Positions 14,187 to 17,560 of a stretch of 64,000 bases of DNA are shown piece by piece. How positions within the stretch are numbered: position 1 is the stretch's first letter; the number at the start of each line of letters is the position of its first letter. The notes under the pieces are model-generated. The model was not told where the DNA came from and searched no databases. It worked only from the letters and a program-made list of their open reading frames with translations. Location of the stretch: positions 62,001-126,000 of the forward strand of contig CANGIS010000003.1 of the NCBI GenBank assembly GCA_947454055.1, written 5' to 3'. The DNA is from Hyphomicrobiales bacterium (GTDB lineage: Bacteria; Pseudomonadota; Alphaproteobacteria; Rhizobiales; Beijerinckiaceae). A program made the translations under genes and the position numbers.

Positions 14187-15560
14187 ATGACCTCGACTCC
14201 CGCCAAATTCACTGCCGCTGATGCGCTCGCTTATGTGCGTAGCCGCGATCTGCCTTATGTCCGCCTCGGTGTTTTCGACATCGACGGCATTTTCCGCGGC
14301 AAATATGTCAATCGCGACAAGTTCGAAAGCTCGCTTGAAAAGGGCCTTGGCTTTTGTGACGTGGTTGTAGGCTGGGATTCAAACGATCAGCTCTATGACA
14401 ATGTGAAGGTGACGGGGTGGCACACAGGCTATCCGGACGCCGCTGTGCGCATGGTGCCCGATACGATGCGGCTGATCCCGTTCGAGGATGACCTGCCACT
14501 CTTCATCTGCGAATTTGATGGAAAATGGGAAGAGGTTTGTCCGCGCGGCACGCTGCGTCGGGTATTGAAGCGCGCCGCCGATATGGGTTTCCATGTCAGC
14601 GCGGCCGCCGAATTCGAGTTCTTCCTGTTCGAGGAAACGCCCCATTCGGTGCGCGAGAAAAACTACAAAGATCTCAAAAACATCACGCCGGGCTTTTTCG
14701 GCTATTCGATGCTGAGAAGCTCCGTGCATGCCGATTTCTACCGCGATTTGCTGGATCTTGGCCGCAAGATGAATTTCGAGATCGAGGGTCTGCATACCGA
14801 GACAGGCCCCGGCGTGTTGGAAGCAGCCATCAAGGTCGATAGCGCGCTGTCAGCCGCGGACAAGGCCGCTTTGTTTAAAACCTACACCAAAGTCTTGGCG
14901 CAAAAGCGTGGCTGGATGGCGTCCTTTATGGCAAAAAGCTCGCCGAATTGGCCGGGCCAATCAGGCCATCTCCACCTCTCCTTGCAAGACATCAAGACGG
15001 GAAAAGGCGTGTTCTACGATAAGGACAAAGCCCATTCGATGTCCGATACCATGCGCTGGTTTGTCGGCGGCCAACAGGCTTTGATGCCGGAAGTGCTGGC
15101 GATGGTGGCCTCCACCGTCAATTCCTATTCGCGTCTCATTCCGGGCTTCTGGGCGCCAACCGACTCGGCCTGGGCGGTCGATAACCGCACCACGGCATTG
15201 CGCGTCATCGAGGGATCGGAAAAATCGCAGCGCGTCGAATATCGCGTTGCTGCCGCCGATATTAACCCCTATCTCGCGCTTGCCGCCGCCATTGGTTCGG
15301 GCCTTTGGGGGATCGAAAATAAAATCGAGCCGGGCGAGCCGCAGACGGGCAATGCCTACGAGGCCAAGTTGCCGAAAAACCGTGCTTTGCCGCGCACGCT
15401 TTGGGAAGCTGCCCAAAAGCTGAAAGGCTCAAAGCCGGCGCGCTCCCTGTTTGGCGACGCCTTTGTCGACCATTTTGCGGCCAGCCGCGAATGGGAAGAA
15501 CGCGAATTCCGCCGCGCGATTACCGATTGGGAATTGCAGCGTTATTTCGAGATTATTTGA
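14187..15560 (+). CDS. Glutamine-synthetase-family gamma-glutamyl-amine ligase
   Basis: A 457-residue protein of the glutamine synthetase fold, of the type used for gamma-glutamylation of amines (PuuA/IpuC/GlnA4-like) rather than ammonia assimilation. The N-terminal beta-grasp part has VRLGVFDIDGIFRGKYVNRD. The catalytic part has AAAEFEFFLFEET (metal Glu), HTETGPGVLEAA, GQSGHLHLSL (His) and VEYRVAAADINPYL (Arg/Glu). No adenylylation-site tyrosine motif of GlnA is seen. It lies upstream of an aldehyde and an alcohol dehydrogenase, so the amine probably carries an alcohol or second amine that is oxidised after glutamylation. The exact substrate is unknown. Confidence 0.85.
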   Translation: MTSTPAKFTAADALAYVRSRDLPYVRLGVFDIDGIFRGKYVNRDKFESSLEKGLGFCDVVVGWDSNDQLYDNVKVTGWHTGYPDAAVRMVPDTMRLIPFEDDLPLFICEFDGKWEEVCPRGTLRRVLKRAADMGFHVSAAAEFEFFLFEETPHSVREKNYKDLKNITPGFFGYSMLRSSVHADFYRDLLDLGRKMNFEIEGLHTETGPGVLEAAIKVDSALSAADKAALFKTYTKVLAQKRGWMASFMAKSSPNWPGQSGHLHLSLQDIKTGKGVFYDKDKAHSMSDTMRWFVGGQQALMPEVLAMVASTVNSYSRLIPGFWAPTDSAWAVDNRTTALRVIEGSEKSQRVEYRVAAADINPYLALAAAIGSGLWGIENKIEPGEPQTGNAYEAKLPKNRALPRTLWEAAQKLKGSKPARSLFGDAFVDHFAASREWEEREFRRAITDWELQRYFEII

Positions 15561-15657
15561 GGTTAGGGGCTAGGGTGAAGGGTGTAGGGGGTAGGATTTT
15601 TTCCACCTTCGAACCCCAAAACGCCCTACGCCCTAAACCCTACACCCTATTCTTACC
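15561..15657. repeat. GTAGGG-type inverted repeat element without a gene
   Basis: Directly after the ligase stop is a G-rich arm (15561-15595) with five G-runs spaced by three to four bases. After 25 bases comes a C-rich arm (15621-15657). Bases 15571-15595 match the reverse complement of 15625-15649 at 22 of 25 positions. Both arms consist of degenerate 7-mers of the form GTAGGGY and could form G-quadruplexes on opposite strands. The same 7-mers recur around the four-helix-bundle gene at 17.06-17.55 kb. No gene lies between the arms. The aldehyde dehydrogenase ATG follows at 15671. Confidence 0.8.
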
Positions 15658-15670
15658 CGAGAACTCAACC

Positions 15671-17053
15671 ATGACCGACATCGTATGCATCTCCCCCATT
15701 GACGGCCACGAAGTAGCGCGTCGCCCATCTGCGACACCAGCCGCCATCGAGGCGACGTTGAAAGAAGCGCGTGCGGCGCAAAAAATCTGGGCGAAGGTTC
15801 CGCTTGCCGAGCGCATGGCGAAGCTGACGGCCTTTGTCGATGCCATGCTCACCATGAATCAGGAAGTGGTGCCGGAAATCGCGCAGCAAATGGGCCGGCC
15901 GGTGAAATGGGGCGGCGAGTTTCGCGGCTTCGAGGAACGCGCCCGCCACATGATCAGCATTGCGCCGGAAGCCCTGGCACCCATCGTGCCGGCCAAGAAA
16001 GCGGGCCTTACCCGCTATATCGAGAAGACGCCCTTAGGCGTGGTGCTCGTTGTGGCGCCGTGGAATTATCCTTATCTTACGGCGGTCAATTCGGTCGTGC
16101 CTGCGCTGATGGCGGGCAATGCCGTGATCTTGAAAGCGGCGGCACAGACGCTGCTTGCGGGCGAGCGTTTTGCCAAGGCGATGGAAGCAGCCCATTTACC
16201 GAAGGGGCTCTTCACCAATCTCGTCCTGACCCACGACGATACCTCGAAAATTCTGTCCTCCGGTTCCGTCGATCACTGCAATTTCACCGGCTCGGTTGCG
16301 GGCGGACGCGCCATCGAGAAGGCGGCGGCAGGAACCTTTACCACGCTGGGCTTGGAGCTTGGCGGCAAAGATCCGGCCTATGTGCGGGCCGATGCCAATC
16401 TCGACCACGCCGTTGAAAATCTGGTTGATGGTGCCTTCTTTAATTCGGGGCAGTGCTGCTGCGGCATCGAGCGCATTTATGTCCATGAGAGCCTTTATGA
16501 CCGTTTCGTCGAAGGCTTTGTGGCGCTCACCAAAACCTACACGCTTGGCAATCCGCTGGACGAGACGACCACGCTCGGGCCAATGGCCACCGCCAAGGGT
16601 GCGGAAGTTGTGCGGGCTCAGGTTCGCGAAGCTGTTGCCAAGGGCGCGAAAGCCCATATCGATGCGGCCCTTTTCCCTCTGGACAAGGGAACCGGCACCT
16701 ATCTGATGCCGCAGGTGCTCACCCATGTTGATCACTCAATGAGCCTGATGGTGGAAGAGAATTTCGGCCCCGTGGTCGGCATCATGAAGGTGAAGGATGA
16801 TGCGGAGGCTGTCCGGCTGATGAATGACAGCCCCTATGGACTGACCGCAGCCATCTGGACGCAGGATGAAGCCGCCGCAGCGTCCATCGGCCATGAGATC
16901 GAGACGGGCACCGTGTTCATGAACCGCTGCGATTATCTCGATCCGGCGCTCGCCTGGACCGGCGTGAAAGACACCGGCCGCGGCGTCAGCCTTTCCGAGA
17001 TCGGCTACGACATGTTAACGCGGGCCAAGAGCTATCATTTACGGACGATATAG
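15671..17053 (+). CDS. Aldehyde dehydrogenase family protein
   Basis: The frame is open further upstream through the repeat and into the ligase gene, but the domain begins at ATG 15671, giving 460 residues. NAD(P)-dependent oxidation of an aldehyde to an acid. Motifs: APWNYPYLTAVNSV (cofactor-binding strand), TGSVAGGRAIEK, LELGGKDPAYV (general-base Glu) and NSGQCCCGIERI with the likely nucleophile Cys263. EENFGPVVGIMKV occurs near the C-terminus. It sits between a gamma-glutamyl-amine ligase and an Fe-alcohol dehydrogenase, so the substrate is probably a gamma-glutamylated amino aldehyde. That is context, not proof. Confidence 0.9.
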   Translation: MTDIVCISPIDGHEVARRPSATPAAIEATLKEARAAQKIWAKVPLAERMAKLTAFVDAMLTMNQEVVPEIAQQMGRPVKWGGEFRGFEERARHMISIAPEALAPIVPAKKAGLTRYIEKTPLGVVLVVAPWNYPYLTAVNSVVPALMAGNAVILKAAAQTLLAGERFAKAMEAAHLPKGLFTNLVLTHDDTSKILSSGSVDHCNFTGSVAGGRAIEKAAAGTFTTLGLELGGKDPAYVRADANLDHAVENLVDGAFFNSGQCCCGIERIYVHESLYDRFVEGFVALTKTYTLGNPLDETTTLGPMATAKGAEVVRAQVREAVAKGAKAHIDAALFPLDKGTGTYLMPQVLTHVDHSMSLMVEENFGPVVGIMKVKDDAEAVRLMNDSPYGLTAAIWTQDEAAAASIGHEIETGTVFMNRCDYLDPALAWTGVKDTGRGVSLSEIGYDMLTRAKSYHLRTI

Positions 17054-17058
17054 TGGTT

Positions 17059-17095
17059 TGGGGTGTAGGGCGTAGGGCGTAGGGCGTGAGGGGTA
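17059..17095 (+). repeat. G-rich GTAGGGY repeat, left arm of the four-helix-bundle cassette
   Basis: Starting six bases after the aldehyde dehydrogenase stop, GGGG-TGTA-GGG-CGTA-GGG-CGTA-GGG-CG gives four G-runs with four-base loops, a canonical G-quadruplex pattern on the + strand. The unit is the 7-mer GTAGGGC. It is the mirror of the C-rich arm at 17520-17550 and of the same type as the pair at 15561-15657. Confidence 0.85.
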
Positions 17096-17140
17096 TGAGA
17101 GTTAGAAAAACCTTCGTTCAAATGGGAGTTCAACAATTCC

Positions 17141-17519
17141 ATGCCTGGCGCTCAATCCTATCGCGACTTAAAAGTGTGGCAAAGTTCCATGACGCTTGTG
17201 GAAGGTTGCTATCGGTTAACTCAAGGTTTTCCAAAAGAGGAGGTTTACGGCTTGTTATCGCAATTGCGCCGCGCCGCTGTTTCGATTCCGGCCAACATCG
17301 CCGAAGGATATGGTCGCGGAAGTCGTCCGACTTATTTGCATTTTTTTGAAAATTGCCCAAGGTTCTCTGAAAGAGTTAGAAACCCATCTTTTGCTAAGCC
17401 ACCGCTTAGGGTTTGTTTCAAACCTTTTATCAGACCCCTTGCTTGACCAATTCGATCAACTCGGACGAATGCTGGGAACAATGATCCGAAAATTTGATGC
17501 GGAAGCCAAAATAGGCTGA
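17141..17519 (+). pseudogene. Four-helix-bundle (23S rRNA IVS / bAvd-like) protein, frameshifted
   Basis: The N-terminal part (from ATG 17141, GGAG ribosome site) reads RDLKVWQSSMTLVEGCYRLT, FPKEEVYGLLSQLRRAAVSI, PANIAEGYGRG. This is the signature of the four-helix-bundle family found in 23S rRNA intervening sequences and in Avd accessory proteins of diversity-generating retroelements. At a run of seven T (17341-17347) the frame shifts; the next frame continues with FLKIAQGSLKELETHLLLSHR to a stop at 17517. With six T a normal protein of about 125 residues would result. The gene is visibly richer in A+T than its neighbours and is flanked by GTAGGGY repeats. No reverse transcriptase or variable repeat is nearby. 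It may be decayed, a sequencing error, or expressed by slippage. Confidence 0.85.
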
Positions 17520-17550
17520 CACCCTACACCCTACACCCTAATCCCTATTA
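17520..17550 (-). repeat. C-rich CCCTAC repeat, right arm of the four-helix-bundle cassette
   Basis: Begins at the base after the four-helix-bundle stop: CACCCTACACCCTACACCCTA followed by a degenerate copy. The reverse complement (GTAGGGT units) matches the left arm at 17059-17095 at 16 of 17 positions over its best stretch. It ends 10 bases before the alcohol dehydrogenase ATG, so it also forms part of that gene's leader. Confidence 0.85.
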
Positions 17551-17560
17551 AGAGTATCCC

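Follow-up and report, generated by a model that had tools for sequence, protein, structure and literature searches.

Two pairs of inverted heptamer arrays lie close together in the 64-kb stretch of DNA analysed here (the window, G000:C3:62001-126000, from a 2.67-Mb genome, G000, in 64 contigs), one of them enclosing a gene, and the locus raises the question of whether arms and gene form one element and, if so, of what kind. A scan of the 64-kb window revealed only three spots with lag-7 self-identity ≥16/21 (15561-15652, 17051-17097 and 17513-17551), and lags 5, 6, 8 and 9 gave zero stretches at that threshold; near-matches to (GTAGGGY)2 numbered 7 relative to 0.02 expected in shuffles. The gene-less pair comprises a G-rich left arm on the + strand (15561-15597), starting directly 3' of the glutamine synthetase stop codon (15558-15560), a loop without a gene (15598-15621) and a C-rich right arm on the − strand (15622-15655; placed by sequence and the lag-7 scan). 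The second pair has its left arm (17054-17097, + strand) directly 3' of the aldehyde dehydrogenase stop codon (17053) and its right arm (17520-17550, − strand) touching the stop codon of the enclosed gene, the whole sitting between aldehyde dehydrogenase and alcohol dehydrogenase genes, outside 23S rRNA. An earlier account drawn from the letters alone (the sequence-only reading) had placed the repeats at these positions, with both pairs convergent, the G-rich arm first and the first pair empty, as is the case. Predicted RNA folds exceeded shuffles for the gene-less pair (15556-15662; z −4.0) and for the cassette (17051-17560; z −3.2), in which the arms pair; judged from sequence and predicted folds, both elements have complementary ends capable of a long stem.

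The enclosed gene (17141-17519, + strand) is a four-helix-bundle IVP gene (PF05635, TIGR02436; 23S_rRNA_IVP) that matches PF05635 with E values of 1e-23 in its first part and 5e-8 in its second, and its stop codon (17517-17519) abuts the right arm. The sequence-only reading had correctly described a bracketed four-helix-bundle gene with its stop against the right arm; it overlooked a +1 frameshift at a 7-T run (17341-17347, + strand), where one extra T makes the gene read in two frames. Since the intact ortholog (L048 in G156) has an uninterrupted frame at that position, and the window segment before the lesion differs from the G156 copy by dN 0.02 and dS 0.28, the lesion is either recent or a sequencing/homopolymer error. 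Selection on IVP genes is purifying (dN/dS 0.03-0.20; 14 pairs). Both G000 and G156 have two IVP genes, one broken in each, and these are different copies: the window copy in G000 and the copy between nuoC and nuoD in G156 (TGA; L065, G156:C94).

To place the cassette in a wider frame, IVP loci were gathered by profile (family, class and phylum) and by peptide pattern (named genomes), giving 139 loci. Inverted flanks (upstream versus the reverse complement of downstream, score ≥14) were present at 113 of the 139, relative to 44/417 mismatched-locus pairs and 15/139 same-locus direct comparisons. Strong period-7 arms occurred at 100/139 loci versus 0.14% in shuffles; lag 7 was the best lag in 118/139 upstream and 108/139 downstream flanks (shuffles 24/278), and at ≥17/21 a total of 60 and 67 flanks passed with lag 7 versus at most 4 with any other lag. 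Furthermore, the 16/21 period-7 test was passed by 52-54% of IVP flanks versus 2.1% of distant blocks from the same loci. Named loci with inverted flanks span 16 phyla; one of the contigs counted carries the label Methanophagales archaeon and may be mis-binned. The proposal of a repeat-bounded cassette, which was to fail if such pairs never enclosed four-helix-bundle genes elsewhere, is supported, arms and IVP gene recurring together in most of the 139 loci. In a few cassettes (L229, L232, L235) the arms have a period of 8 (for example GTAGGGGA).

The rules followed by the arms were scored on the 76 loci at which an array could be read in both flanks. A consensus heptamer was common to both arms (6-7/7 positions) in 69/76 loci, and 46 different heptamers, or dialects, were found among the 76. 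Left arms contained AG in 68/76 loci and CT in 7, which makes a convergent arrangement led by the purine-rich strand nearly universal. With counting limited to codirectional upstream genes, for which strand calls are crude in GC-rich DNA, the left arm begins at the upstream stop codon (median distance 1 base; 37/49 within −30 to +15). No arm sequence is shared beyond AG; what is conserved is period and polarity. The order of variant units was mostly unmatched between arms (p values near uniform, 6/67 under 0.05), and the stems therefore carry mismatches; the idea that one arm was copied from its partner by fold-back was rejected on the same observation. In two Nostoc plasmids, otherwise nearly identical cassettes are exactly one heptamer apart in one arm.

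Four G-runs are present in the GTAGGGY arms of the window, and the sequence-only reading had noted that every arm can form a G-quadruplex (G4) and called the repeats telomere-like. The latter description fits the window dialect, which is only one among many, and G4 formation is not supported as the defining feature: the other IVP gene of G000, which is intact and sits in the nuoC-nuoD interval of contig C62, has GCGAATA arms that lack four G-runs, and many dialects in relatives, such as GCGAATA, GCAGTCG and GTGAGTA, are without G-runs. G4 formation was accordingly rejected as a common property, and G4s in the arms are incidental.

Dialect and protein were then compared across loci. IVP and heptamer identity were correlated over 2,470 pairs of loci occupying different sites (rho 0.26; maximum of 1,000 permutations 0.19; p=0.001), and near-identical heptamers climbed from 2% to 61% of different-site pairs with rising protein identity. 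In 199 family genomes, dispersed GCGARTR arrays tended to accompany an IVP, a link that held inside genera as well (Mantel-Haenszel p 3e-7); GCGARTR is less specific, since it also turns up in genomes with an IVP of a different dialect and in genus g42, where IVP was not detected. GCAGTMG arrays were found in 8/8 genomes with GCAGT- or GCAAT-type IVP arms versus 1/13 other IVP genomes, counts that take in the cassettes' own arms, which may explain the weakest two cases (G059 and G027). TAGGG arrays were strong in three genus members with an IVP of TAGGG dialect (23, 18 and 17 hits) and absent from both IVP-bearing genus members of other dialects; a few also occurred in some members without a known IVP, most of these being less complete genomes. 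Gene-less pairs are scattered through IVP-bearing genomes, often in the dialect of the resident IVP. We show that the arms and the IVP gene form one recurrent unit in which the dialect follows the protein.

These data bear on the idea that such simple-sequence repeats belong to the host and serve regulation or termination, for instance as G-quadruplexes near gene ends, and that the IVP gene lies between two of them by chance or convenience. In its favour, gene-less pairs outnumber IVP cassettes in G000, and the GGGAATC heptamers of Xanthomonas form G4s in vitro and lie near gene ends, with 70 inverted pairs in Xcc (Rehm et al. 2015, PMC4692102). Such a role nevertheless leaves aside the matched arms at most IVP loci in many phyla, arms that follow the protein between different sites and the many dialects without G-runs, and we regard it as improbable. 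The Xanthomonas and Nostoc repeats of Rehm et al. resemble the present arms in being tandem heptamers in convergent inverted pairs, intergenic and close 3' of stop codons; they differ in that the class is defined by G4, and the paper makes no mention of an enclosed gene, of IVP or of other dialects or phyla (PMC4692102). In two GGGAATC-rich genomes, accB- and accC-like genes flank an IVP cassette whose arms are of GGGATTC or GGGAATC. Separately, one genome with an IVP cassette of a related heptamer also contains a lone GGGAATC array that is very long and one-sided (L254, G695:C1:326876 onward).

Pattern searches, on which the genome-wide array counts rest, found more TAGGGNN array loci in G000; those read out were intergenic, gene-less and nearly all convergent pairs. 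GCGARTR pairs were likewise dispersed, and among the pairs read in G000 a gene was enclosed only in the two IVP cassettes. The junction between aldehyde dehydrogenase and alcohol dehydrogenase was readable in ten genomes/species of the genus: the cassette is present in 2/10 (G000 and G156), and a short spacer alone in G068, G120, G029, G182, G199, G169, G140 and G097. At the junction of glutamine synthetase and aldehyde dehydrogenase, the pair is of GTAGGGY type in G000 and of GCGAATA type in G156 and G068, and no pair is present in G120, G029 or G182; as the right flanks of G000 and G156 differ, their sequences could reflect one insertion that switched dialect or independent insertions. The cassette site is thus empty in eight congeners, which, like the dispersed gene-less pairs, supports the sequence-only reading of a repeat-bounded cassette with empty relatives.

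How such units come to occupy their sites was approached from recurrent junctions. The nuoC-nuoD junction accounted for 38 IVP loci, and in a tree of the 36 usable ones, built on few columns and with many open forks, these were clustered (3 changes versus 32 in shuffles), with at least 6 dialect changes among them. Other sites used repeatedly resemble accB-accC and cysD-cysN (gene names read from encoded start peptides), and the recurring junctions suggest preferred or old sites besides nuoC-nuoD. Operon junctions reused across genomes include L239, L241 and L245 (cysD-cysN-like) and L250 and L251 (accB-accC-like), as well as L102, L104, L108, L114 and L230. In the multi-copy genomes read, IVP copies within one genome are old paralogs with no fresh duplicates; together with nuoC-nuoD copies that look largely vertical, this indicates infrequent movement and largely vertical descent. 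Recent within-genome transposition of IVP was not seen in these genomes, the relatives compared at the window site stand too far from G000 for a target-site duplication to be read at the junctions, and a search for carriage by phages gave zero matches in 50,697 phage records.

The short palindromes beside stop codons are REP-like and the gene-less copies MITE-like, which is what one would expect of REP/RAYT-like or MITE elements that depend on a Y1 transposase or IS acting in trans; REP/BIME elements with RAYT share with the gene-less pairs the form of short intergenic palindromes near gene ends. However, Y1_Tnp (PF01797) is absent from G000 and from the other IVP-bearing members of the genus, and the arms keep period and polarity only, not sequence: with 46 dialects they have no conserved terminal sequence and lack the conserved REP sequence with a GTAG/GTGG-type foot. 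Mobilisation by RAYT is largely refuted for G000, and this class of explanation appears very unlikely.

An alternative element, based on reverse transcription, would have the IVP act like Avd with a reverse transcriptase, as in diversity-generating retroelements (DGRs). The two proteins are remotely related in sequence, their homology being stated in PMC10053308, and IVP matches the Avd model weakly (E 3e-4), far below its cut-off (21 bits versus 80). RVT_1 (PF00078), however, is absent from 12/12 genus members; mobilisation by reverse transcriptase was rejected for this reason, and an Avd-like role is very unlikely here. No mobilising enzyme was found that could account for movement of the unit, RVT_1 being absent from the genus and Y1_Tnp from G000. 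Two loci match PF05635 weakly, L067 (G027:C59) and L064 (G154:C507); the neighbour sequence of L067 resembles a reverse transcriptase, and L067 may be a DGR Avd gene.

The closest known counterpart lies within ribosomal RNA. ORF-bearing 23S rRNA IVSs with an S23/IVP ORF have been described in Leptospira and Coxiella burnetii (PMC4990558; Ralph and McClelland 1993, as cited). The Coxiella IVS is 428-nt long with a 28-bp stem and an S23p ORF, is excised by RNase III in vitro and contains GACAGAT heptamers whose number varies between strains (PMC4990558). It shares with the window cassette an IVP ORF between complementary ends, a total length of ~430-500 nt and a long stem, and the Coxiella heptamers adjoin the ORF. 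In contrast, the window cassette lies between protein genes, its heptamer arrays stand on both sides and its gene-less relatives are dispersed; moreover, the Coxiella ORF is decaying whereas IVPs elsewhere are under purifying selection, though the window copy is broken. Three lineages (L063, L093, L226) show the same architecture in the ribosomal setting, a heptamer-armed IVP gene placed within LSU rRNA. The sequence-only reading knew no named element of this form; the anatomy does match that of the ORF-bearing 23S rRNA IVS, and it is the intergenic form that is apparently undescribed. Literature joining IVP/S23 with heptamers was confined to the Coxiella and Xanthomonas papers in a search that had bioRxiv and most subscription papers outside its range.

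Taken together, the window feature is probably an IVS-type, heptamer-armed IVP cassette between protein genes, with gene-less derivatives and with arms that form a processable stem. Such a cassette, with convergent arms of tandem AG-containing heptamers around an IVP/S23 gene and apparently inserted directly 3' of the stop codon of an operon gene, would be transcribed together with its host operon; base pairing of its arms would give a double-stranded RNA stem open to cleavage by RNase III, sparing the host message, by analogy with the Coxiella 23S IVS in vitro (PMC4990558). The IVP, a pentamer in the homolog of solved structure (2gsc; PMC4990558), may recognise its own arms and may assist host machinery in spreading them, with gene-less pairs moved along in trans, and heptamer number would shift by slippage.

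Slippage also underlies a reading that needs no element at all, in which it makes the arrays and the resemblance between the two sides is maintained by quasi-palindrome correction at replication. Copy changes of one unit occur here and likewise in Coxiella strains (PMC4990558), and the nuoC-nuoD copies look largely vertical, as such a passive origin would have it; it leaves unexplained the near-fixed period of 7, the AG-first polarity (68/76) and the dispersed gene-less pairs of matching dialect, and the register match expected from correction is missing, and we regard a passive origin as improbable. At the opposite extreme, the arms might be actively written, an IVP-dependent process extending both 3' ends of a break with an AG-containing heptamer specific to the genome, a process akin to telomere addition that would operate without a recognisable reverse transcriptase. 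Active writing would yield convergent arms, one dialect, differing unit order and gene-less pairs; we consider it, all parts together, unlikely, and if true it would represent a novel means of extending DNA ends and of spreading elements.

The cassette kind favoured here, IVS-type and heptamer-armed, is small, widespread in bacteria and apparently undescribed, having been known before only as separate pieces. It links apparently separate things, namely orphan IVP/S23 proteins, ORF-bearing 23S rRNA insertions and the G-rich heptamer repeats of Xanthomonas and cyanobacteria, in one widespread class that tolerates life inside operons. The coupling between protein and arms leads to a concrete hypothesis for the IVP substrate, a heptamer-repeat stem or array, and IVP genes reported inside cas operons (PMC3936711) may be insertions.

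Other repeats accompany some of the arrays. A second palindrome (GGACCGCG...GAGCCGGAGGCTCGCGGTCC) lies in the loops of several gene-less pairs and is common to different sites and species (L209 2026-2263 in G000:C13, L222, L224 and L221). A REP-like sequence (CACTGCGAGCGAGAGCGAAGCGG) is adjoined or enclosed by heptamer arrays at L034 (G000:C10:12234-12443) and L040 (G000:C9:33179), and at L040 the GTAGGG array turns into CACTAGG units.
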